In this document: piece after piece, positions 22,162 to 32,804 of the stretch
Layout: each line of letters starts with the position of its first letter
Position numbering within the stretch: the stretch's first letter is position 1
Source: Lentzea indica
GTDB lineage: Bacteria > Actinomycetota > Actinomycetes > Mycobacteriales > Pseudonocardiaceae
Assembly: GCF_012184385.1 (NCBI RefSeq)
Contig: NZ_VSRL01000001.1
Location: 62,001 to 126,000 of the forward strand
Length of the DNA stretch: 64,000 nt
Direction of reading: 5' to 3'
The notes under the pieces: model-generated
The model's input: only the letters and a program-made list of their open reading frames with translations
Told to the model about the DNA's origin: nothing
The model's database searches: none
Program-made: the position numbers and the translations under genes

Positions 22162-23574
22162 TTAGCGGTCAACCGTGGCTTGTAGCTCCTTGACTGCCGG
22201 ACGGTTCTGCCACGGGGCCAAGGCGTCGACGACCCGCGTCAACTCCCTGTGCGTGCGCTGCGAGCTGACGCCAGCCGCGCGCCTGGCGGACTCCATCCCT
22301 GTCTTGGCCGCCTCGTCGGGCTCGCCGGCAAGTGCTAAGGAGCCCGCCATCCAGGAGAGGAAGAAGCCGTAGTCGCGCGGCGAGAAGCTGTCCTCTTTGA
22401 GGGACTGGCCATAGAGCTCAACGCCTCGACGCGGTTTGCCTGCTTCCGAGTAGCAGACGGCCATCTGCATGGTCAGCAGCGTGTCGTTGTAGTGCATGCC
22501 CATCGTGCAGTCGCTGCTCTCCTTGGTGCCGAGCAGTTGCCAGGCCTCGCTGAGCTTGCGCTCCACCGATCCAAGCGACGCACCGAGCATCGCTTCAGCG
22601 CGAGCTACTTGTTGCGCCGCTTCAGCTTGTACACGGTATGGAAGCGCCCACGAACCAGTCCGCACAGCGTGCGCCAGATCAAGCATCCGGTGCGGGTCAC
22701 GTTCGTCGTAGGCGAGCTGCGCCTTCTTCAACAGCACGTAGCCCTGCATGGCGCTGTCACCGGTCACCTGCGTCCACTCGATGGCCCTGTCGTGCCAGAA
22801 GAGCGCGCGTACCAAGTCACCAGCGTCGCGGTAGAGCCAGCCAGCGAACTCGGCACACTCCGCACCAAGTACGAGCAACTCACGCCGAACGGCCGGCTGC
22901 ACCTCACGCGCGGATTGTTCAATCGCACCAAGGATGCCAAGCACGATCGGAAGCGGCGGGGTCTTCAAGGCATCAGTGCTGCCGTCACCGGCCTTGCACC
23001 TACCGAGCTGGTTGCGCAGCTTCCCAACCAAGTCGCTATCGAGGTAGCGCCGGGCATCTTCCATCGCCGCGGCAACTTGCTGGTGTGCCTCAGGATCAAG
23101 CGCTGGCAGCGCTGAGGAGAGAACACTGAACTTCAGGAGCGAGCGTCGGCTAAGTGGACTCATCGCATCCTCTCCGGCGGCCGGGGCGAGGGCACCTGGA
23201 AGCGCGGGAAACCCTTTCGCTGCAAGCGTAGTTGCATCAACCGGCAGCAGCACCGGCTTCCCATCCACCAGTACAGGCAGCATCACCGCACCGGGTGGCA
23301 CCTGGGTAACTTCCGGCGAAACAACCTCGCCGTCGACCACGGCCGCCTGCTCATCTGGCTCGCCTGAGAGCAGCTCATCGAGTCGTTCAAGCGACACCTG
23401 CAGGTAGCGAGCGAGCTTGGGCCGGATCCATGGCTGAGGGCCCTTAACGAAATCGCCGCTATCCCAGCGGCGCACGGTGCGCACGTCGATGTTGAGGCGC
23501 TCCGCCAAAGCCTCCTGCGAGAGGCCCATCGCCGCACGCCTCCTGGCGAACGGACTTAGCTCCTCGTCCATCAT
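22162..23574 (-). CDS. large XRE-family regulator with a TPR-like C-terminal domain
   Basis: 470 residues. HTH at about 5-65 (RRAAMGLSQEALAERLNIDV, then RTVRRWDSGDF). A linker with a hydrophobic patch (RRSLLKFSVLSSALP) leads into helical repeats up to the C-terminus (for example ALFWHDRAIEWTQVTGDSA) typical of TPR sensors. Actinobacteria have many such regulators beside small acidic or ATPase-fold partner genes (the AbaA/WhiJ type). It is divergent from the 23744-27854 operon and probably controls it. Motifs GTCCGG and TTTGGCC are repeated in the 170-base gap. Confidence 0.85.
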   Translation of the reverse strand: MMDEELSPFARRRAAMGLSQEALAERLNIDVRTVRRWDSGDFVKGPQPWIRPKLARYLQVSLERLDELLSGEPDEQAAVVDGEVVSPEVTQVPPGAVMLPVLVDGKPVLLPVDATTLAAKGFPALPGALAPAAGEDAMSPLSRRSLLKFSVLSSALPALDPEAHQQVAAAMEDARRYLDSDLVGKLRNQLGRCKAGDGSTDALKTPPLPIVLGILGAIEQSAREVQPAVRRELLVLGAECAEFAGWLYRDAGDLVRALFWHDRAIEWTQVTGDSAMQGYVLLKKAQLAYDERDPHRMLDLAHAVRTGSWALPYRVQAEAAQQVARAEAMLGASLGSVERKLSEAWQLLGTKESSDCTMGMHYNDTLLTMQMAVCYSEAGKPRRGVELYGQSLKEDSFSPRDYGFFLSWMAGSLALAGEPDEAAKTGMESARRAAGVSSQRTHRELTRVVDALAPWQNRPAVKELQATVDR

Positions 23575-23743
23575 CGCCCACTCCCCTGTACGCCTGGCCT
23601 CCTATTTGGCCAGATCACCGCCCCGATGTCCGGGTTGTGTCCGGAAACCGCCGCTACGCACGCCCTGTGTTTGGCCCGTTACGACCGGTTCAGTGAGAGT
23701 ACGGCCACACCGGGCCGGACGGCAACGACGGCAAGGAGGGGCA

Positions 23744-23944
23744 TTGACCAGGCAAAAGACGCTGATCCCCGCTGGCGCCTCTGACCCGCTCCCCACGCTC
23801 GACCGGCTCGCTGAAGTCGCGATTGCGGTATTCGACGAGCACCTCAACTCCGCAGAGTGCTGCGCCATCTGCGGCACCGGCTGCGGCACCGGCTGGCCGT
23901 GCGAGCAAGTGGTGCTGGCTGACCACAACCTGGCGGTGCTCTAG
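23744..23944 (+). CDS. small Cys-rich protein
   Basis: 66 residues from a TTG start; AAGGAGGG lies just upstream with a short spacing. The core LAEVAIAVFDEHLNSAECCA is followed by CGTGCGTGWPCE, a Cys cluster that could bind zinc. Similar short proteins accompany XRE-TPR regulators in actinobacteria, where they may be regulatory partners. It is the first gene of a tightly packed operon; the next ATG follows its stop directly. Confidence 0.6.
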   Translation: MTRQKTLIPAGASDPLPTLDRLAEVAIAVFDEHLNSAECCAICGTGCGTGWPCEQVVLADHNLAVL

Positions 23945-24358
23945 ATGGTGCCGCCCACGAACCGGCAGGGTCGGGGATGCTGGTCCACCCCCGACGCCCA
24001 TCTCCGACCCTGCCACCCAGCAACAATTCGCCCGCTTCTCGGCTACATCCGGGTGCAGCCGCTTGTCACTGAGCGGCAAATCGAAGTGCTACGCCGCACG
24101 ATGGCGGCATACGCCAGCCTTGAAGGCTTCGTCCTCACGCGCGTCTTGGTGGACAGGAGCTTCGAGCACACCACCGCACTCGCTGAACTTCTCGCCGCTC
24201 TGGATGACGGCGAGGCTCGCCACGTTCTCGTGCCTGCACTGCACCACTTTGGACACTTCGAGGGCGTGCAACTGGCGATGAAGGAGCTGCTGGAGTCGCA
24301 GCACGGCGCTCGTGTGCTGGTGCTGTTCTCCGGACCAAGCGCAGGGGTGACGCCATGA
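23945..24358 (+). CDS. serine-less resolvase-fold protein
   Basis: 137 residues. LLGYIRVQPLVTERQ copies the opening strand of serine-recombinase catalytic domains (YxRVSxxxQ), followed by helix, strand and ELLAALDDGEARHVLVPAL in the place of the next helix and strand. The catalytic serine is replaced by Gln, and the DRLxR motif is replaced by ALHHFGH. It therefore cannot be an active recombinase but keeps the fold, perhaps for dimerisation or ligand binding. It starts directly after the upstream stop and overlaps the next gene by 4 bp. Two similar proteins occur in this window (29270 and 46980). Confidence 0.65.
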   Translation: MVPPTNRQGRGCWSTPDAHLRPCHPATIRPLLGYIRVQPLVTERQIEVLRRTMAAYASLEGFVLTRVLVDRSFEHTTALAELLAALDDGEARHVLVPALHHFGHFEGVQLAMKELLESQHGARVLVLFSGPSAGVTP

Positions 24359-24945
24359 CTGCTGTCCAGATCCACGAACTGCCTACTGCGGCACTGGCTA
24401 TTCCTCAGCCCCGCGGCGAGGTGCGCATGTACGAGTTGGGGCTCGTGGCCGTGCCGAGCGCGATCACCTGTGCCCGGCTGCTGGTGGCGTACGTGGCAAG
24501 GAGGTGGCGGCTCGACCGCACCTGCGAACGCGAGCTCGGCCGTGCCGCCGAAGCTCTTGTGCACTACGCCGTGGCTGCAGCTGGCGGCGAACGGGCTCAC
24601 AGCCGCCACGCGGAGGTACTGAACCTGATCGCCTTCCGCCTGGTGCTGACCCCGCGAGCCGTGATCGCCGAGGTTTGGGATTCCGGCATGGAACCACCGA
24701 AGCCCTTTCCCGTTACGACAGCAGCAGGTAGCGGCTGCGACCTCCCGCGCCCAGGGCTCCGTGTGGTGTGGTGCGCCATCTGCCTCGAGGGCACAGAGAA
24801 AGAAGTCGAGGCTCAAACCGCGGCCGGCTTCCCGCGGCGCCAGCGGCTGCAAGGCCCCGTTCAGGAGTGCGTTGCGATGCGCGACCCGGAGCTTCTCCAG
24901 CGAGTCCTTAGTGGACTCCGAGCCTTTGGCGCTGGTGAGGCCTGA
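24355..24945 (+). CDS. degenerate RsbW-like (GHKL) ATPase-fold protein
   Basis: 196 residues. The beginning of the fold (PSAITCARLLVAYVARRWRL, then RTCERELGRAAEALVHYAV) matches anti-sigma-factor ATPases of the RsbW family, and VIAEVWDSGMEPPKP matches the G1 box. The key Asn of the N box (usually ELVTNA) is missing: EALVHYAVA. So ATP binding is doubtful, and a regulatory protein-protein role is more likely. ATGA overlap with the resolvase-fold gene. There are 145 bases before the oxidoreductase gene. Confidence 0.6.
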   Translation: MTAVQIHELPTAALAIPQPRGEVRMYELGLVAVPSAITCARLLVAYVARRWRLDRTCERELGRAAEALVHYAVAAAGGERAHSRHAEVLNLIAFRLVLTPRAVIAEVWDSGMEPPKPFPVTTAAGSGCDLPRPGLRVVWCAICLEGTEKEVEAQTAAGFPRRQRLQGPVQECVAMRDPELLQRVLSGLRAFGAGEA

Positions 24946-25090
24946 GGACGCTCATCACCTTGAAGGCTATGACGATGCCGTCACGTTTCATGCGCTTCAC
25001 AGCCACACGACTCTCCGCATACCGCCGCCCTCGTGGACCGAGCAGCGGCCGTCGCTGGTTCAGCACATTCTGTAGAAGGGAACGCAGCTC

Positions 25091-26146
25091 ATGACCGAAG
25101 TGGTACAGCTGCCGCTCGCACATCGCCGCGGGCATCAAGCGCAGGAACGAGCCACCAAGCTTCGTGCGGGCGTGGTGGGGCTCGGTAAACAGGCGCTCGA
25201 AGACCACATACCGGGGCTGCTCAGCTCCGACGGCGCGGAACTCGTCGCCATCTGCGACTCGGCAGGAGACGTCGTCCGCGAGCAGCAGTTCAGGCTCGGC
25301 GTGCCCGGCTACACCGACGCCGAGGCGATGTTCATGGCGGAGGAGCTCGACCTCGTCGTGGTGTGCGTGCCGCACAGCGAGGGCAGGCGGATTGTCGAGC
25401 TGGCGGCGTCCAGCGGCATCCACGTGCTGAAGGAGAAGCCCTTCGCCACCACCGTGACCGAGGCGCGGGAGTTGGTGGAGCGCTGCGAGAAGGCCGGTAT
25501 CCACCTGATGGTCACCTTGCAGCGGCGTTTCAACCCGATCTACACCAGCTTCACGCAGCTGGCCGACCAGATCGGCACGCCGTTCATGGTGGATGCCGCC
25601 TACACGCTGCACATCGCCGATCCATCGGAAGGCTGGCGCGGCCGCACCGAGCAAGCCGGTGGCGGCTGCATTATCGACATGGGCTACCACCTGGTGGACA
25701 TGCTGCTCTGGTACTTCGGCCTGCCGGATCGGGTGCTGGCCGACATGTCGATGAGTGCCCGACCAGATCGCAACTACGACGCTGAGGACACGGCGCTCAT
25801 CCACTTCAGCTACGACAGCGGGCTGTATGGCTCCCTGTTGCTCTCGCGCTTCATCGGGCCGAAGTCGGAGCAGATCAGGCTCATCGGGAACAAGGGCATC
25901 GTCCACCTCGAGCGCGGCCGGATTCGCCGGCTGAGCAACGACGGCCAGGTAGTGGAGTCACTTTCCCGCGAGCAGGCGTGGCCCTCGGCCGCGGTGAGCC
26001 AGATCAACCACTTCTGCCGGGTCATCGAGGGCATGCGGGAGAACGTCAGCGGCCCCAGCGAGAACCTCGCGCACCTGGCCTTCATCCAGAGCTGTTACGA
26101 GTCCGCGCGCTCGCGGGCCCACGTCAACCCGAAGGAGCTGCTGTGA
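25091..26146 (+). CDS. Gfo/Idh/MocA family oxidoreductase
   Basis: 351 residues. The N-terminal Rossmann fold shows as RAGVVGLGKQALEDHIPGL, then LVAICDS; the family motif EKP occurs in HVLKEKPFATT (Lys about residue 117 in the active site). The C-terminal half has the mixed sheet with GGGCIIDMGYHLVDMLLW, where Asp and His are the usual catalytic pair. These NAD(P)-dependent enzymes oxidise sugars, often to 3-keto sugars. It lies 3' of regulatory-type genes and overlaps the aminotransferase gene by 4 bp, consistent with supplying a keto-sugar for amination. AAGGGAACG precedes the ATG. Confidence 0.9.
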   Translation: MTEVVQLPLAHRRGHQAQERATKLRAGVVGLGKQALEDHIPGLLSSDGAELVAICDSAGDVVREQQFRLGVPGYTDAEAMFMAEELDLVVVCVPHSEGRRIVELAASSGIHVLKEKPFATTVTEARELVERCEKAGIHLMVTLQRRFNPIYTSFTQLADQIGTPFMVDAAYTLHIADPSEGWRGRTEQAGGGCIIDMGYHLVDMLLWYFGLPDRVLADMSMSARPDRNYDAEDTALIHFSYDSGLYGSLLLSRFIGPKSEQIRLIGNKGIVHLERGRIRRLSNDGQVVESLSREQAWPSAAVSQINHFCRVIEGMRENVSGPSENLAHLAFIQSCYESARSRAHVNPKELL

Positions 26147-27402
26147 ACTCGCCCCTGGCACTGCTCGGTGGAGAACCGGTCATCCGCCAGCCCGGTCAGC
26201 ACTTCAGCTGGCCCCCGATCACGGAGCAGAGCAAGAAAGCGGTGGTCGAGCAGCTCGGCGAGAACATCTCCATCTACGACCGCTCCGGCGTGGTCGCGGA
26301 GCTAGAGGATGCGCTGGCCAACTACTTCGGGGTGAAGCACGCCGTCTCGATGAGCTCCGGCACTGCGGCGCTACACGCGGCTTACGCGGCCTGCCTCATC
26401 GAGCCGGGCGACGAGGTGATCGTGCCCGCGTACACCTTCTTCGCCACGGCTACGCCGCTGCTGCACCTCGGCGCGATTCCCGTGCTGGCCGACTGCGACG
26501 AGACCGGCAACATCTCCGTCACGGAGGTGGCCTCGAAGATCACGCCGAACACAGTTGCCATCGTGGCGACGCACATGTGGGGCATTCCAGCCAACCTCCC
26601 CGCACTGCGTGCCCTGGCCAACGAGCACCACCTGATCCTCCTTGAGGACGGTTCGCACGCCCACGGCGCCAGCCTCGACGGGCAAAAGGTCGGCAGCTTC
26701 GGCCAGGCGGCCGCCTTCTCGATGAACGGCCCGAAGCCGTTGTCGGCGGGCGAGGGCGGCTTCGTGCTCACCAGCGATGACGACACCTACTTCCGCCTCC
26801 TGCTGTTTGCTCACTACAACAAGCGCTGCCGCAGCGAGATCCCGTCCAGCCACACGCTGCACCGCTTCGCCGTGACCGGCATGGGCTTGAAGTTCCGCAT
26901 CCACCCGCTGGCTGCTGCCTTTGCCCTCGACCAGCTCACCCACCTAGATGAATATCTGGCCGGCCGTGCCCAGGTCGCCGCGCTCTTGTGCAACGAGCTC
27001 AAAGAGGTTGCTGGCATCTCGGTGCCACAGCTGCCGAGCAAGCACCAGGCCGCTTGGTACGGCTTGCCGCTCACCTACGTGCCCGACGAGCTTGGTGGCA
27101 TCACGGTGGAACGCTTCCACAAAGCGCTGCTAGCTGAAGGCCTGAGTGAGGTCGACCGACCCGACTCAACCTGCCCGCTGAACCAGCTGCCGCTGTTCCA
27201 ATGCCCAGCAGCCTTGTTCACGCACCAGCGGGAGTTCGCGAGGCTCCGCTACCAACCGGGCGGCTTCCCGGTGGCCGAGCTGGTGCACCACAACACCCTC
27301 AAGCTTCCGGTCTGGCACCGGGAGGAAGATGTGCCGCTTGCACGTGCCTACGTGAGGGGCATCCAGAAGGTGGTCGAGCACCACCACGACCTCAAGGGAT
27401 GA
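26143..27402 (+). CDS. DegT/DnrJ/EryC1/StrS-type PLP aminotransferase
   Basis: 419 residues with the family landmarks: PxLGGEPV-like start, SSGTAALHAAYAA (phosphate-binding turn), VIVPAYTFFATATPLLHLGA, ADCDETGNIS, VATHMWGIPAN, EDGSHAHGAS and the active-site region SFSMNGPKPLSAGEGG. The Schiff-base lysine is expected in that region and the K of GPKPLSAGEGG fits (about residue 201). Such enzymes aminate keto-sugars or cyclitols in antibiotic and glycan pathways. GTG start within the oxidoreductase stop; the other end overlaps the NUDIX gene by ATGA. Confidence 0.9.
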   Translation: MNSPLALLGGEPVIRQPGQHFSWPPITEQSKKAVVEQLGENISIYDRSGVVAELEDALANYFGVKHAVSMSSGTAALHAAYAACLIEPGDEVIVPAYTFFATATPLLHLGAIPVLADCDETGNISVTEVASKITPNTVAIVATHMWGIPANLPALRALANEHHLILLEDGSHAHGASLDGQKVGSFGQAAAFSMNGPKPLSAGEGGFVLTSDDDTYFRLLLFAHYNKRCRSEIPSSHTLHRFAVTGMGLKFRIHPLAAAFALDQLTHLDEYLAGRAQVAALLCNELKEVAGISVPQLPSKHQAAWYGLPLTYVPDELGGITVERFHKALLAEGLSEVDRPDSTCPLNQLPLFQCPAALFTHQREFARLRYQPGGFPVAELVHHNTLKLPVWHREEDVPLARAYVRGIQKVVEHHHDLKG

Positions 27403-27854
27403 AGATGATCGACTCCGCGCTGCTCGAACGGCTCACTGAAGAGGCCGCAGCCGATGACGTGGTGCAGCTCGTTGTAGGAGCCGTTGTTGAGAGCGACGAG
27501 AAGGTGCTGCTGCTCAAGCGTCCTGCGGACGACTTCATGGGCGGCATCTTCGAGCTGCCCAGCGGCAAGGTAGAGCGTGGCGAGGACTTGAAGACGGCGC
27601 TCACGCGCGAGGTCGAGGAGGAAACCGGACTCCAGGTCGCGGCCGCTACCGCGTATCTCGGGAGCTTCGACTACACCTCGGGCAGCGGCAAGAAGAGCAG
27701 GCAGTTCAACTTCGTGGTGGCCGTGGACACGCCTGGGCCAGTGGTGCTGCAGGAGCACGACGAGTTCCAGTGGGCGCCGATCGAAGAGGAGCTGCCGGTT
27801 ACGGATGCCGTGAAGAAGGTGTTCGAGGCGTATCGGGAGCTGCAGGCAAACTGA
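27399..27854 (+). CDS. NUDIX hydrolase
   Basis: 151 residues. The Nudix box is complete: GKVERGED, a 6-residue spacer, then LTREVEEETGL, that is G-x5-E-x7-REVxEExGL, which binds Mg2+ and hydrolyses nucleoside diphosphate derivatives. N-terminal strands VVGAVVESDEKVLLLKRP and FELPSGKV are standard. As the last gene of the operon it may clean or process a nucleotide-sugar intermediate. ATGA overlap with the aminotransferase gene. A 12-bp hairpin terminator follows. Confidence 0.9.
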   Translation: MKMIDSALLERLTEEAAADDVVQLVVGAVVESDEKVLLLKRPADDFMGGIFELPSGKVERGEDLKTALTREVEEETGLQVAAATAYLGSFDYTSGSGKKSRQFNFVVAVDTPGPVVLQEHDEFQWAPIEEELPVTDAVKKVFEAYRELQAN

Positions 27855-27898: not shown

Positions 27899-28080
27899 TA
27901 CGGGTGCCAGCTGATGTCTACGCGGATGTGCGGAATGACGTCGACGAGCAGCCACACAATAAGGCCGCCCGCGATGGAGTAGAACAGGGCGCCTTGGCGC
28001 GACACCGGATCCAGCAGGCGGGCACGCCATGAACGACGGACTTCAGGAGGCTGGGCGGAAGCCGCGTCGCCCGTGCTCAT
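27898..28080 (-). CDS. small membrane protein
   Basis: 60 residues: basic N-terminal half (RRSWRARLLDPVSRQG) and a single membrane helix (LFYSIAGGLIVWLLVDVIPH). Its ATG overlaps the upstream stop by 4 bp, so it is coupled to the 28077-28496 gene in a PadR-led unit. Function unknown. Confidence 0.6.
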   Translation of the reverse strand: MSTGDAASAQPPEVRRSWRARLLDPVSRQGALFYSIAGGLIVWLLVDVIPHIRVDISWHP

Positions 28081-28496
28081 GCCGACTCCTTCCTGCTGCC
28101 TGTACGAACCGTGTAGGCGTATCGCGGCATGGCAAGTAGCTGACACGTCGCCCACCACTGCTTGCGCAGGTCACCGGTCAAGTCGGCAAGGTAGGCACGG
28201 TTCTCTTCGATCCAGTCGCGACGCTCAGCCACGGGCAAAAGATGGGACGCAAACGAGAGGGTCATTGAGAGCTGCCCCTCCAATATTCCACTAATGAACC
28301 CATGAACACCTGCCCAAACAGAACGTTTCTCCCCCTCACTGAACATCTTCGGCGTAGCAAGCAATGATGGAGATTCCGAGGACTCGCAATCAGCACCCTG
28401 AGGCGACGATTCCACCTCCGACCTCCAAGCCAGCAGCATCGCATTAAGCTCATCATCAAGGATAGGTGCGTTTTCCGAAGAAGGTCGTGATTCCAC
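28077..28496 (-). CDS. PadR-associated protein with LPxxxRxxWxxE-type C-terminus
   Basis: 139 residues from GTG. The C-terminal half, SHLLPVAERRDWIEENRAYL and ADLTGDLRKQWWATCQLL, has the pattern seen in membrane partner proteins of actinobacterial PadR regulators (LP..xR..W..E....L..L...R). The related genes at 29628 and 31705 share this pattern. The ribosome site is weak. A different frame beginning at the PadR stop (28568) encodes MDPFEFEDGNESEGVSG and might be the original N-terminus if a frameshift lies between them. Confidence 0.5.
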   Translation of the reverse strand: MESRPSSENAPILDDELNAMLLAWRSEVESSPQGADCESSESPSLLATPKMFSEGEKRSVWAGVHGFISGILEGQLSMTLSFASHLLPVAERRDWIEENRAYLADLTGDLRKQWWATCQLLAMPRYAYTVRTGSRKESA

Positions 28497-28569
28497 CAGG
28501 AACGTTCCAGATCATGGAGTCCACTCACCCCCTCAGACTCATTTCCATCTTCGAACTCGAAAGGATCCA

Positions 28570-28944
28570 TCAGAATCCGCCCGCCAAACCAGGCCGGAGA
28601 GCATGACCGCCCTTAAACGATTCCCTGGCCAGAGCCTCTGCAAGCGCATGCGGCACTTCCTGCGCTCCCTTCTCGGAGAGCTTGAAGTACCGCCGCCGCG
28701 GCCGGCCTTCAGCTTCGGCAACCTCGTCCTGCTCCCAGTACCGCTCCACCCACCCCGCCTGCCGAAGCCGTTCGAGCGCGGGGAACAACGTCCCGTTGGG
28801 CAGCCCCGTGATCTTCGATAGTTCCAAGCCATAGAGACCACGCACCAGCACCTCGTGCCGCCGCCCCTCCTCGGTGCGGCGCCCCAGGAGCACGTGAAGC
28901 AACTCCTGGGTGTGCGCCGTCATCTTCGGCTCTGACATATCCAC
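28570..28944 (-). CDS. PadR-family transcriptional regulator
   Basis: 124 residues. Winged helix of the PadR type: ELLHVLLGRR, LYGLELSKITGLPNGTLFPA with the recognition helix, LERLRQAGWVERYWE, and the wing GRPRRRYFKLSEKGAQE. PadR proteins repress promoters, commonly of membrane or transport genes, and often respond to small hydrophobic compounds. Two CTACCTAGGTAG palindromes lie 4 and 28 bases upstream of the start and are very likely its operator. It leads the unit with the two minus-strand genes downstream. Confidence 0.92.
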   Translation of the reverse strand: MDMSEPKMTAHTQELLHVLLGRRTEEGRRHEVLVRGLYGLELSKITGLPNGTLFPALERLRQAGWVERYWEQDEVAEAEGRPRRRYFKLSEKGAQEVPHALAEALARESFKGGHALRPGLAGGF

Positions 28945-28947
28945 AAC

Positions 28948-28983
28948 CTACCTAGGTAGATGCTGGCTTGTCTACCTAGGTAG
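28948..28983. promoter_or_regulatory. tandem palindromic PadR operator
   Basis: The 12-bp palindrome CTACCTAGGTAG occurs at 28948-28959 and again at 28972-28983, with 24 bases between starts, about two helical turns. The position immediately before the PadR gene suits cooperative autorepression. Confidence 0.8.
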
Positions 28984-29269
28984 AGGGCGTACCGCTCATG
29001 CCTCGCGCACGTCCACCCAATGCCGCAGCCAATGTGCACCAGACGGCAGGCGGCCGAACGAGTGACGCCGCCACCATGGCGGCGTGACACCGTTGCGCGC
29101 TCAATGAAATCCTGTTGATCAACACGCCCAAAGGTGTGGTACGCGTCTGCCCGGATGGCGGATGGCGGATGGCGAACCATTGCCCACGGCGAAGCCGTAC
29201 AACCACACATAGGAACGCCGAGCGAACGGTGGCCAAGTTGGGCAGATGCAAGAGCGCGGTGGGACGAAG
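28984..29269. other. intergenic stretch with a hairpin and GGATGGC repeats
   Basis: No gene seen. ACGCCGCC and GGCGGCGT (about 29070-29088) form a short GC-rich hairpin. The heptamer GGATGGC occurs three times in a row near 29154-29174. Confidence 0.4.
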
Positions 29270-29638
29270 ATGACCGCGAACGGGGAGTCATCTGAACGTC
29301 CTCCACACCCGTTGGCCAGTGGCGAGCCACCGATCGCCTGCGGCTACTTGCGAAGAGGAGAAGGCAAGCGAGTCTCCGTGCCGCAGCTTCAGGACCGGAT
29401 CATCGCCCACGCCAAGGAACTTGGCTTCGCGCTCTATCACCCTATCTTCGTCGACACGCTCCCAGGCAGTCCCCTGGACCGTCCGGCGTTCCGGGTTCTT
29501 CTCGACGTCGTGTGGGAACTCCACATCACCACCGTGATCACGCCGAGCATCTGGCACCTGTCCCAGGAAGAAGCCGAAGCTAACCAGGTACGAAGGCGCC
29601 TTGCGGCCTACGACTGCCGCGTGATCTTCATGCGTTAG
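29270..29638 (+). CDS. serine-less resolvase-fold protein
   Basis: 122 residues. IACGYLRRGEGKRVSVPQLQ resembles the serine-recombinase opening strand and following helix, and FRVLLDVVWELHITTVIT the later helix and strand, but the catalytic serine is Gly and the DRLxR motif has become PSIWHLS. The fold is thus kept without recombinase chemistry. The chosen ATG follows GGTGGGACGAAG; an ATG eight codons upstream is possible. Its last 11 bases overlap the convergent membrane gene. It is the second of three such proteins in the window. Confidence 0.6.
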   Translation: MTANGESSERPPHPLASGEPPIACGYLRRGEGKRVSVPQLQDRIIAHAKELGFALYHPIFVDTLPGSPLDRPAFRVLLDVVWELHITTVITPSIWHLSQEEAEANQVRRRLAAYDCRVIFMR

Positions 29639-30446
29639 GTGTGGCCAACTCCCGCTCCATGCCCGTCACGAGCGAGGCTCGCAGCCGCAGGCTGAGGTCG
29701 AGCGCCTCATGACGGAGCCTGCCGAGTTCGTCGTAGCGCAACGAGTGCGGCAGTTGGCCGTGCCGCGGCCACACTCGAAGGTGCATCCGAAGCACGTCGC
29801 GGTTCAACAGGTACAGCCGCTCCCTGGTGTCGAGCAGTTTCCCGGCAAGCTCACGCGCCGCCTTGAAGTGTCGGCTTTCGGTCGCCAGCAACTGCTGCGC
29901 CAGCACCAGAGCCGGCACGTTGTGCGCCGCGCGCCGGTTCTGGAGGCGTGAGATTCCTACCGCATGCAGCAGGTCGAAGCTGGTGCTGCGCGTTCCATCA
30001 GGCGCAAGCACCATGACTAGGTGCTGGGCCAGCCTGAGTTCGTTTCCCCGAAACCGGCTCGCGCGAAGGTACTGCAGGCGGGCCCAGCTCAGCTCAGCCC
30101 AGTTGCGCGGAGCCGTCACGAACAGGTTGGTGAGGAACGCCTTCCGGCGTGGCCCGTCGAGCTCGTTGAGCTGCGCCTGCATCTCTTCGAGCCACACCGG
30201 AAAGTAGTGCTCGGGCATGCCGATCGCGACGAAGGTCAATACCCAATGGCGCGTCTCGCTCTGAAGGTCGCGAACGTACTGCCAAGACCAGAGAGCCATG
30301 GCGGCGCCGGCCCACATCGCCATCACGATCAGGCCCACGATCATCGAGACCACGAGCGAGAGATCGAGAGCCTGGCTCAGCGCGGTTCCAAGCGGAACCG
30401 CCGCGAGAAGCGCTAGCCAAAGGCAGCGCTCACCCGACTCCTTCAA
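29628..30446 (-). CDS. PadR-cluster membrane protein
   Basis: 272 residues. Two N-terminal membrane helices (ALLAAVPLGTALSQALDLSL and VVSMIVGLIVMAMWAG) precede a cytoplasmic helical domain with MPEHYFPVWLEEMQAQLNEL and DGPRRKAFLTNLFV, the same LP..WxxE...L..L..xR pattern as in the neighbours at 28077 and 31705. The C-terminal ~120 residues are charged helices. Its role is unknown; such proteins are typical targets of PadR regulators. Confidence 0.6.
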   Translation of the reverse strand: MKESGERCLWLALLAAVPLGTALSQALDLSLVVSMIVGLIVMAMWAGAAMALWSWQYVRDLQSETRHWVLTFVAIGMPEHYFPVWLEEMQAQLNELDGPRRKAFLTNLFVTAPRNWAELSWARLQYLRASRFRGNELRLAQHLVMVLAPDGTRSTSFDLLHAVGISRLQNRRAAHNVPALVLAQQLLATESRHFKAARELAGKLLDTRERLYLLNRDVLRMHLRVWPRHGQLPHSLRYDELGRLRHEALDLSLRLRASLVTGMERELATPNA

Positions 30447-30549
30447 GCACTCCTCCGGTCATCGGGAGTGCAAGGCACCCGCCAGCTCACACCAATATCC
30501 TCACCGAGATCATCTCGTGACGCTCCCGTTACCTTGGAGTACCACACCA

Positions 30550-30963
30550 TCAGGCGTTTCCCCGGCGGCGCTGTATCTGACGTTTTGGCTGCTTCTCCTT
30601 GTTTTCCAAGGGCTCCTTGACGCCTTCGAGTGAAGGAAGCGCGGACGGCGTGTCTCTCACGACGTGAGACTCGATCACGGTTGGAGGCGCGCTTGCCGGC
30701 TCGAACTCACCTTTCGCCAGGCGGGCCAGCTCGGTCACGCGGGCGAAGGGCTCGTTTCGTCGAGAGAAGACAGCCCAGAGCACTCCTCCCACGACGACCA
30801 GCGCGATGAACAGGAGCCCGCCAACCAGCCATGACATCCAGGAGGCGAAGAAGACGCTGGCGAGCGAACCCCCGCCACCAAGTACTGCAGCCACAGGCGT
30901 GAGACGCGCGCGGCGGCCGGCTTGTTGAACGGGTGCGCGACGACGACGGTGCCGCGGAGACAT
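30550..30963 (-). CDS. hypothetical membrane protein
   Basis: 137 residues from the ATG at 30963 (MSPRHRRRRAPVQQ). A basic N-terminus, one or two membrane helices (VLGGGGSLASVFFASW and LVGGLLFIALVVVGGVLWAV), then an acidic to basic cytoplasmic tail ending RQIQRRRGNA. It lies 100 bases upstream of the 29628 gene on the same strand, probably in one transcript, and is divergent from the PadR gene at 31391. Function unknown. Confidence 0.55.
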   Translation of the reverse strand: MSPRHRRRRAPVQQAGRRARLTPVAAVLGGGGSLASVFFASWMSWLVGGLLFIALVVVGGVLWAVFSRRNEPFARVTELARLAKGEFEPASAPPTVIESHVVRDTPSALPSLEGVKEPLENKEKQPKRQIQRRRGNA

Positions 30964-31196
30964 TGAACGAAGTACCTCACGTAGAAGCCAACCGAGATGA
31001 TGCACAACCTGCACACGCAATGTGCCCGCCGCGGCGGAGAGTCCGAAATTGTCAGGGGCGTGCGGTAAGCCTCGAGGCGCACGGAGCACCAGACGAGCAG
31101 GGGAACGCGGGCATGGACCTGTCGGCCAGGTCGGCGATGGCGGTGCGGGCTGGCCGCAGCTGCGTCATGTGCAGAACCTACACCCTATGAAGAGCT

Positions 31197-31204
31197 CTAT
31201 ATAG
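31197..31204. promoter_or_regulatory. CTATATAG palindrome between divergent genes
   Basis: CTATATAG, in the context GCTCTATATAGGTCC, lies in the gap between the membrane gene starting at 30963 and the PadR gene at 31391. The same core occurs before the PadR-like gene at 32804 (32840-32847), and a related AATATAGG precedes the 31391 start. This suggests a PadR-type operator shared by the cluster. Confidence 0.5.
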
Positions 31205-31390
31205 GTCCTTACGCGCCGCCACCCGATCGTGTACCGGTGGCCATGATCACTCAACATTCCGCAAGCCCCGGACGTTCACATCTGATGGTCTGATCGCGCC
31301 GTCCGGGTGCACTGAAGGGTGTTTCCAGGCACAGGCCCTGCAGGGTATCCAGAACTCAATATAGGGTGCTTCGTTGTGGGAGCGCTGCGG

Positions 31391-31708
31391 ATGACCGTCC
31401 AGACGCAGGCCGTCTTGCATGCTTTTTTGGCCGATCCAACTGCCGAGCTGTACGGCCTAGAGATCGCCGACCGAACCCACCTGATGCCTGGCACGACGTA
31501 CCCGATCCTGGTTCGCCTTCTTACAGCCGGCTGGATCACCGATCGCTGGGAAGACGTCGACCCGCGCGAGGAAGAACGGCCGCGGCGGCGCTACTTCAAA
31601 CTCACAGAAGAAGGTGCGGACAAGGCCCGCGAAGCGCTTCGCACTGCAGCCTCGAAGGGGTTCGTGCAGTCACTCGCCCAAGGGCGCCTCGCGAACGGAC
31701 TGGGCTAG
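31391..31708 (+). CDS. PadR-family transcriptional regulator
   Basis: 105 residues. MTVQTQAVLHAFLADP, LYGLEIADRTHLMPGTTYPI (recognition helix), LVRLLTAGWITDRWED and the wing RPRRRYFKLTEEGADKAREA are classic PadR features. The ATG at 31391 fits the family start; GGGAG lies about 12 bases upstream. It overlaps tail-to-tail with the membrane gene at 31705 by 4 bp. Probably it represses itself and a neighbouring membrane gene. Confidence 0.9.
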   Translation: MTVQTQAVLHAFLADPTAELYGLEIADRTHLMPGTTYPILVRLLTAGWITDRWEDVDPREEERPRRRYFKLTEEGADKAREALRTAASKGFVQSLAQGRLANGLG

Positions 31709-32499
31709 GCAGCCCCGTCGACCTTGCGCCTCCAGCTGCGCCGCGAGGTTGCCAGCTGCTCAACAAGCTCGGTGATCACTAGCGTCGTGTGGTTGATCTC
31801 CAGCATGTAGGCAACCTCAAGCGGGCACGGCAAGCGGTCTTCCGGTCGAGGCCGGTCAGTTCGCGCTTGCTCCGCAAGGAGTCCGCTGCAGCTCTTCGCC
31901 AGCCAGGCAGCGTTCGTGACGATCTTTGGGTGATGGCGCTCGCTGACGCACGACTCCAGCAGGCGGCCCCAGAACCGAAGCTTCCGCATCTGGCGCTGTC
32001 GTTGATGGCGCTGCTCCTCGTGCTTCGGCCATACCGGCATCTTGGAGCGCAGCAGCGCGTTCATCCTGCTGATTCGCGGCAGCATCCACATCGCCGTGAG
32101 CCAACTCGACAACTCACGCAGCACGTCGAGCTTCTTCGCAACCCATGCAGCCCATGTCGCGCGCAGCAGCACGACAAACGATCTCCCGATGTGCGACCGC
32201 ACCACATCACGCTGCTTCGGCTCCAGATCTCCGAGCTGCCCTTCGAAGTCTGCAATCCATGAACGAGCCTCTTCGAGCGGAAGCAAGGGAGCGATCAGGA
32301 GAAGCCATGCCGTCTCTCGTGGCCGAACCGGAAGCGACCGAATGACGAGGCAGTAGCGCACGGCGTAGAGCAGAGCTGCGGTACCAACCACAGCGCCCGG
32401 AACGACGGGAGAGCTCTGCTCCGCTTCAGCCAGCGCAGCGGCGAGCGCAAGCACTCTGTCATGACTCCCGGAAGCGACCGGCAGCCAGACGGCGCTCAC
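31705..32499 (-). CDS. PadR-cluster membrane protein
   Basis: 264 residues from GTG, overlapping the upstream PadR-like gene by 4 bp (GTGA). N-terminal membrane helices (VVPGAVVGTAALLYAVRY) are followed by LLPLEEARSWIADFEGQLGD and LEPKQRDVVRSHI, the shared LP..WxxE...L..L pattern of the cluster, then basic helical regions. The translational coupling with the regulator gene suggests regulation of the membrane protein by the PadR-like protein or signalling between them. Confidence 0.65.
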   Translation of the reverse strand: MSAVWLPVASGSHDRVLALAAALAEAEQSSPVVPGAVVGTAALLYAVRYCLVIRSLPVRPRETAWLLLIAPLLPLEEARSWIADFEGQLGDLEPKQRDVVRSHIGRSFVVLLRATWAAWVAKKLDVLRELSSWLTAMWMLPRISRMNALLRSKMPVWPKHEEQRHQRQRQMRKLRFWGRLLESCVSERHHPKIVTNAAWLAKSCSGLLAEQARTDRPRPEDRLPCPLEVAYMLEINHTTLVITELVEQLATSRRSWRRKVDGAA

Positions 32500-32804
32500 T
32501 CCGCGTTCTTCCCGCCTGCGGGCCACGAAGGGACGAACCGCGGACGGTTCTCGGCGGAAACCCAACGTCCGTAGACGGTTGCCCGGTGCAGCTGGCGGCC
32601 CTTGCGCCCAGGTGTTGACACCTCAGCCATATCCCAGCGCGTGGTGACCTGATTCAGCCGGCGCAGGCGCACCAGCACGGGATACAACCGTGCTGGGTTG
32701 AGGTCAGCCGCCTCCGCGAGTGCTGCCGTATCAAGCTCGATGTCGGGTCGTGCTGTCAGGGCTCGCAGCACGCGACCGGCGTGCCGCCGCCGTCGCCAAA
32801 ACAT
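32496..32804 (-). CDS. PadR-like winged-helix regulator
   Basis: 102 residues from the ATG at 32804 (MFWRRRRHAGRVLRALTARP). LDTAALAEAADLNPARLYPV and LVRLRRLNQVTTRWDMAEV form the HTH, and GRKGRQLHRATVYGRWV the wing, a divergent PadR. A CTATATAG palindrome lies 36 bases upstream. Its stop overlaps the GTG of the membrane gene, so the two form a two-gene unit. Confidence 0.75.
   Translation of the reverse strand: MFWRRRRHAGRVLRALTARPDIELDTAALAEAADLNPARLYPVLVRLRRLNQVTTRWDMAEVSTPGRKGRQLHRATVYGRWVSAENRPRFVPSWPAGGKNAE

Follow-up and report, generated by a model that had tools for sequence, protein, structure and literature searches.

A six-gene operon of Lentzea indica, found in a 64-kb stretch (the window) of contig C111 of the 9.97-Mb genome, is fairly likely to be a stand-alone aminonucleotide module, a locally regulated variant of the chemistry encoded by the pur genes of puromycin biosynthesis and the adg genes of Photorhabdus. 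Its last three genes encode a Gfo/Idh/MocA oxidoreductase (25091–26146, plus strand), a DegT-type pyridoxal phosphate (PLP) aminotransferase (26143–27402, plus strand, GTG start) and a NUDIX hydrolase (27399–27854, plus strand), which resemble Pur10/AdgB, Pur4/AdgC and Pur7/AdgD, respectively; the first is a proposed nucleotide ribose dehydrogenase. This trio probably yields a nucleotide carrying an amino modification, and not an amino sugar. A first-pass annotation of the same DNA had proposed that a locally regulated set of three enzymes could carry out the oxidation, amination and processing of a nucleotide-linked substrate, and the gene set and families bear this out. It had also named a sugar or cyclitol as the substrate, which is probably wrong, as both the aminotransferase and the oxidoreductase fall with pur- and adg-type clusters, separate from those paralogues of their own genome that were sampled.

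According to PMC11641026, puromycin is made with the help of Pur10, an NAD-dependent ATP dehydrogenase, Pur4, an aminotransferase, and Pur7, a NUDIX hydrolase. The Photorhabdus genes adgB–E are homologous to pur10, pur4, pur7 and pur3, respectively, and their expression in E. coli generated 3′-amino-3′-deoxyguanosine (ADG), according to PMC9239236. 2′-Aminonucleosides are also known as natural products, going by a reference title in PMC12648386, a review of purine nucleoside antibiotics whose main text contains no occurrence of puromycin, pur4 or pur10. No earlier description of the trio or its relatives was found in open PMC papers.

Enzyme families, distribution and phylogenetic placement

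The three enzymes were assigned by Pfam to GFO_IDH_MocA (4e-22), DegT (2e-75) and NUDIX (5e-19). Their genes are adjacent, with an overlap of four bases between oxidoreductase and aminotransferase and a second one, ATGA, between the aminotransferase stop and the NUDIX start at 27399. The motifs scanned, which are presumed to be catalytic, are intact in every sequence examined: the full NUDIX box in 34 of 34, the DegT lysine and GEGG in 29 of 29, and the Gfo EKP and DxGYH in 28 of 28. The decayed loci L041 and L050 (L numbers denote loci, G numbers genomes) lie outside the NUDIX motif set.

Among relatives of L. indica the distribution of the trio is patchy and accessory, with an aminotransferase orthologue in 7 of 99 genomes (its own included) and the oxidoreductase in the same seven. 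Trio-level aminotransferases were found in at least 11 of 392 genomes of a Streptomyces-genus search; this search scored four candidates per genome, so that the count is a lower bound. A pattern scan of one genome per species across 84,980 species returned 37 loci, comprising 19 with the trio in order, four clostridial, seven partial, six with other DegT genes and one contig-end fragment. Altogether, Gfo, DegT and NUDIX genes stand adjacent and in order in 27 examined loci: the window, the 19 scan loci, the Streptomyces plasmid L052 and six Streptomyces genomes. L099 was removed because it duplicates L032; of the 11 trio-level Streptomyces matches, four (G500, G532, G733 and G739) were left out of the context examination. 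One of the 27, L102, may be frameshifted, with Gfo and DegT in one frame and the end of DegT in another. Eight genera are named among the trio loci: Lentzea, Amycolatopsis, Saccharomonospora, Actinoalloteichus, Glycomyces, Frankia, Nocardia and Streptomyces. Phage origin or carriage was considered and rejected, viral contigs having yielded two matches at 23–24% in an exact-peptide scan and phages four records at 29–34%.

In a DegT tree of 62 rows, the 29 trio rows, counting a decayed locus (L033) and a duplicate (L099), cluster together (100/98). This group is nested in a 51-row branch (100/100) together with three pur-type, two adg-type and four clostridial rows. Outside the branch fall the PDB chains 8gyh, 5w71 and 3bn1 and eight rows of other DegT genes from the same genome, eight of whose 11 other DegT places entered the tree. 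Similarly, 28 trio rows form one group (95/99) in an oxidoreductase tree of 50 rows, and are joined with pur-type and adg-type rows (100/97) apart from 13 own-genome paralogues. The agreement of the two gene trees supports the aminonucleoside grouping. No grouping with sugar-type enzymes was seen, although these are represented by few references, namely the three PDB chains and the uncharacterised own-genome paralogues. Scans of the PDB revealed no close characterised homologue, the best being 8gyh, presumably Fic25, at 179 bits for the aminotransferase. Furthermore, searching with a hidden Markov model (HMM) revealed NUDIX genes at 14 of 22 larger-branch DegT loci versus none of nine stretches around other own-genome DegT genes; ten of the 14 had helped to build the model, an annotated NUDIX gene in L056 was missed, and the control stretches are shorter and partly overlapping.

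The pur-type rows are the stand-ins L090, L091 and L095. On L090, a Streptomyces contig, NUDIX, Gfo, a large open reading frame (ORF), DegT, IMP phosphatase and GNAT genes follow one another, and L091 and L095 are similar. This is taken to be the pur gene order, and the names NapH, Pur6 and PAC are likewise assumed for L090 proteins; NCBIfam gave no name for the Pur6-like and PAC-like ones. The window trio and pur10–pur4–pur7 of Streptomyces alboniger, with its cystocin and A201A counterparts, thus belong to the same three enzyme families, joined in both trees, but the window has the order Gfo–DegT–NUDIX without the intervening gene and the different arrangement seen in L090. With adgB–E of Photorhabdus luminescens (PMC9239236), the window shares both the families and the order of adgB, C and D. 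In contrast to adg, no AdgE-type phosphatase match lies by the trio and no AdgA-type exporter is present among the six window genes.

The adg-type stand-ins, L054 and L055, are plasmids of stink-bug symbionts that carry similar adgB–E-like four-gene operons, and their DegT proteins are 39–41% identical to that of the window. The 6.3-kb plasmid of Candidatus Pantoea carbekii (L054, 1–6287) is annotated with repA, Gfo, DegT, NUDIX and inositol monophosphatase genes only. The plasmid of the Plautia stali symbiont (L055, 8004–11451) is annotated as hypothetical and was matched to L054 by comparison.

The most suggestive single clue to a nucleotide substrate appears to be a radical SAM enzyme of a nucleotide-directed family in the place of the dehydrogenase. 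In four contigs of uncultured Clostridia (L034–L037, of which L036 and L037 are nearly identical), a radical SAM domain stands ahead of a DegT domain of 40–41% identity; L034, L036 and L037 encode the two as a single frame, and L035 has them in two pieces. Next comes a NUDIX protein some 300 residues long, shown for L036 to be a tandem NUDIX. The radical SAM domain of L036 matches the GTP 3′,8-cyclase MoaA at 135 bits and then, among others, prokaryotic viperin at 72.5. MoaA attacks the 3′ position of GTP. Three Gfo queries found no match in the clostridial stretches even at E 1, an NAD-binding-looking ORF of L036 (8823–9899) lying outside that examination. The likeness to MoaA and the prokaryotic viperins resides in this fused domain of the clostridial relatives; the window operon, by contrast, contains no radical SAM gene, and its chemistry would be oxidation and amination rather than dehydration or cyclisation.

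Genes of nucleotide metabolism also occur near some relatives. A thymidylate-kinase-like gene lies between the trio and the cassette of small genes described below in L018 and L021 (E 3e-11 and 2e-13), and a thymidine phosphorylase gene lies beside DegT in L053. In L086 (5694–12776), from a Streptomyces-genus genome, the surroundings of DegT include genes for a ribonucleotide reductase, a flavin reductase and a NUDIX protein, as well as a weak kinase match, and the region is a possible nucleoside cluster.

Competing readings of substrate and role

Several observations weigh against an aminonucleotide product. The oxidoreductase tree has many very long branches and calls for caution. The pur- and adg-type references in the trees were named by gene content and are not authentic S. 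alboniger or Photorhabdus sequences, and RifK, NtdA and WbpE are not among the DegT rows. Identity to the pur-type stand-ins is modest, at 38–42% for the aminotransferase, 26–36% for the oxidoreductase and 28–43% for NUDIX where BLAST reports it; the window's own NUDIX protein has no match to them at E 1e-6. RifL, which belongs to rifamycin biosynthesis, shares 32% N-terminal identity with Pur10 (PMC11641026). The larger DegT branch is chemically mixed and not purely nucleotide-linked; glycosyltransferases, an epimerase and fructosamine kinases lie near DegT in L053 and L092, a formyltransferase in L056, L057 and L093, and a carbamoyltransferase in L087. None of the 27 trio loci yielded a Pur3/AdgE-type phosphatase match, in a search that took in all 64 kb of the window. 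As to the NUDIX enzyme, the idea of self-protection is weakened because the AdgB–E authors put its step before amination (PMC9239236). Its gene is intact in three of five internally decayed loci (L033, L039 and L049), while L041 and L050 contain no NUDIX box in any frame of more than 100 codons; the partial loci L038 and L040, at contig ends, are not counted among these. Such retention is compatible with a protective role without proving it, and NUDIX is the last gene, so that front deletions would give the same pattern.

The phosphatase search with plasmid queries did find matches in L090 and L091, and an inositol monophosphatase is annotated in L054. At E 1e-5, none of the 27 trio loci showed a match to the IMP-, Pur6-, NapH-, PAC- or MFS-like proteins of L090, in a search that did not cover Pur5, in which several trio stretches were short on one side and which unrelated exporters would escape. 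In these searches the 27 loci showed no complete aminonucleoside antibiotic cluster of the puromycin or ADG kind, with phosphatase, ligase, PAC, NapH and exporter.

Were the product instead a nucleotide-linked amino sugar (UDP- or dTDP-), from which the NUDIX enzyme releases a sugar phosphate, the operon would resemble the UDP-kanosamine branch of rifamycin biosynthesis, which uses RifL and RifK, or the comparable WbpB/WbpE-type pathways. Gfo/Idh/MocA and DegT enzymes act mostly on sugars, the nearest NCBIfam models are sugar or inositol enzymes (among them PseC and inositol 2-dehydrogenase), all far below cut-off, and the N-terminal resemblance of RifL to Pur10 points in the same direction. 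An amino sugar is nevertheless unlikely, given that the trees part the trio from the eight DegT and 13 Gfo-type paralogues of its own genome (all uncharacterised), that a NUDIX gene, by the one HMM, is present at 14 of 22 larger-branch loci and in none of the nine stretches around other own-genome DegT genes, and that no glycosyltransferase is present among the six window genes.

It is very unlikely that the operon is an inducible defence, in which an XRE-TPR switch would call up an amino-nucleoside triphosphate (amino-NTP) to terminate the nucleic acid of phages, in the manner of prokaryotic viperins, and NUDIX would switch the system off. A sporadic distribution (own genome and six of 98 other relatives), the failure to find a pur-type exporter or PAC-like gene at any of the 27 loci, the kinase gene present at two of them, the MoaA/viperin-like domain in Clostridia and the NUDIX genes left intact in three of five internally decayed loci would all agree with such a role. 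The window NUDIX protein also matches the PADLOC model PDC-S07 at 69.8 bits, PDC presumably denoting a phage-defence candidate. PADLOC models found nothing among the remaining six window proteins, however, no close relative was found in phage or viral collections (the viral scan being by exact peptide patterns), and an NTP-destroying NUDIX enzyme fits plain biosynthesis equally. Least probable of all is an amino sugar or aminocyclitol, free or phosphorylated, of the kanosamine (NtdA/NtdC) or scyllo-inosamine kind, with NUDIX as a bystander: NtdA, also a DegT enzyme, does score in the PDB scan, at a low 70 bits, but a NUDIX gene follows DegT in all 27 trio loci and the four clostridial contigs, and the cyclitol aminotransferase chain 5w71 lies outside the DegT branch.

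Regulator, upstream region and small genes

The layout reported by the first-pass annotation, with six genes, a divergent XRE-TPR gene, overlapping ORFs and one 145-base gap, was re-found at the same coordinates and confirmed by re-reading the ORFs with Pfam and NCBIfam. Upstream of the trio on the plus strand lie genes for a Cys-rich mini-protein (23744–23944, TTG start), a serine-resolvase-fold protein (23945–24358) and a degenerate RsbW/SpoIIAB-fold, ATPase-like protein (24355–24945). The first two abut (23944/23945), the second and third overlap by four bases, and the gap (24946–25090) precedes the oxidoreductase. The gene order recurs in three further Lentzea genomes, of which two have the complete set of six and L015 lacks a Cys-rich match; operon order is therefore more than chance.

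The XRE-TPR gene (22162–23574, minus strand) is a constant partner of the trio, an HMM having detected a divergent gene of this type opposite it in 27 of 27 loci. The model was built from 24 of these proteins, so that only L028, L098 and L101 are independent matches; among the 24, Pfam found HTH_3 in 19 and a TPR_12 repeat in seven. The window protein matches HTH_3 (8e-6), and its TPR part exceeds the cut-off of the NCBIfam model NsdA_fam_reg (9e-41; 140.8 bits versus 75), a likeness to the NsdA-type XRE-TPR regulators of Streptomyces. It differs from them in falling far below the cut-off of the NsdA equivalog model (32.3 bits versus 830) and in facing one small operon. At four of the trio loci (L019, L021, L022 and L048), the XRE gene is followed by one resembling 5-formyltetrahydrofolate cyclo-ligase, and on plasmid pSGZL (L052, 3420–7765) an alanyl-tRNA synthetase gene adjoins the XRE-TPR gene.

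In the intergenic region (23575–23743), a DNA alignment of eight loci revealed a block, GCCCTGTGTTTGGCCCGTTACGACCGGTT...TACGGCCACAC, that is conserved in Lentzea and partly beyond. The region is a probable promoter or operator. A clear operator was sought and rejected, inverted-repeat searches having found no repeat common to all four Lentzea loci, which leaves only the conserved block.

An alignment of six Cys-rich sequences gave the motif C..CG...WPC....LA.HNL, with no Pfam family above cut-off. The resolvase-like protein stays below the Pfam Resolvase cut-off (0.06), while its L021 relative reaches 8e-8; its AlphaFold model (predicted local distance difference test, pLDDT, 79) matches serine-recombinase catalytic domains in Foldseek (E 3e-6). 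At the site of the catalytic serine it reads RVQ in place of ...RVS, which is assumed to be the canonical motif, so that the fold is that of a serine resolvase and the serine is missing. Correspondingly, the ATPase-like protein falls below the HATPase_c_2 cut-off (0.045), its L048 relative reaching 1.5e-12, and its AlphaFold model (pLDDT 69) matches SpoIIAB/RsbW (E 3e-5). Two alignment blocks were given the names GRGL box and N-box by assumption; the box and the N-box Asn, both kept in L024 and L048, are lacking in the window protein, which has the RsbW/SpoIIAB fold without them. These models and missing residues uphold the earlier description of a serine-less resolvase fold and a degenerate RsbW-like fold.

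The earlier view of the three proteins as built-in parts of the pathway does not hold. At least one of their genes is present in 11 of the 27 trio loci (the window, L015, L016, L018–L024 and L048), and all three in five, among them L019 with a weak resolvase match (0.003). No small-gene match was found in the remaining 16 (14 Streptomyces loci, L017 and L025). Conversely, six trio-less relatives (G002, G003, G023, G064, G071 and G078) have members of the resolvase-like family. In several of these the resolvase-like gene adjoins an XRE-type gene, and in G023 it also has Cys-rich and ATPase-like partners. Being optional at trio loci and present without the trio, the three genes thus appear to be a portable regulatory cassette, separate from the chemistry. 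The enzymes do therefore occur without the regulatory genes to which the first-pass annotation had tied them, as far as the small genes are concerned, but not without the XRE-TPR gene.

Recurrence of the cassette within the same genome was considered and rejected; the resolvase-like protein has no second match there and the ATPase-like protein a single weak relative. G071 contains seven resolvase-like matches and no trio, and an XRE/resolvase-like cassette in it (L152, 2130–7801) lies about 2 kb from another DegT gene, 30–36% identical to trio DegT. A second resolvase-fold ORF without the serine is found in the window at 29246–29638 (Pfam Resolvase 1e-4, just below cut-off). Downstream of the operon (28077–32565), ORFs without an assigned role alternate with regulator ORFs that are presumed to be PadR-like.

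Proposed pathway and significance

In the proposed pathway, the Gfo/Idh/MocA enzyme would oxidise a ribose hydroxyl of a nucleotide (3′ in the known relatives, here 2′ or 3′) to a ketone, which the DegT enzyme would aminate. The NUDIX enzyme would cleave the triphosphate to the monophosphate as a pathway step, before or after amination; PMC9239236 and PMC11641026 both put pyrophosphate loss before amination. It may also provide self-protection against a chain-terminating nucleotide. The divergent XRE-TPR protein would control the operon, and in some lineages the Cys-rich protein, the dead resolvase fold and the degenerate RsbW fold would have been added between promoter and enzymes. Since no Pur3-type phosphatase, pur-type exporter or ligase was found beside the trio, the product may stay a nucleotide or be finished by household enzymes.

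A broader idea, decidedly unlikely as it stands, is that switch-controlled aminonucleotides serve as intracellular chain-terminator weapons or alarm nucleotides with viperin-like logic. A Pur10-like dehydrogenase in actinobacteria and a MoaA/viperin-derived radical SAM enzyme in Clostridia would then supply the chemistry, NUDIX the immunity and the XRE-TPR protein the sensing of a trigger.

Should the trio indeed make aminonucleotides, the chemistry of puromycin and ADG would also occur in self-contained operons, each with a local regulator, scattered among actinobacteria, and the regulatory cassette would be set apart from a chemistry to which it had once been assigned. Cluster searches keyed on Pur6, PAC or a phosphatase would miss such operons, from which uncharacterised aminonucleotides could be obtained directly, and the fusion of radical SAM and DegT domains in Clostridia could be a new route to a keto-nucleotide.

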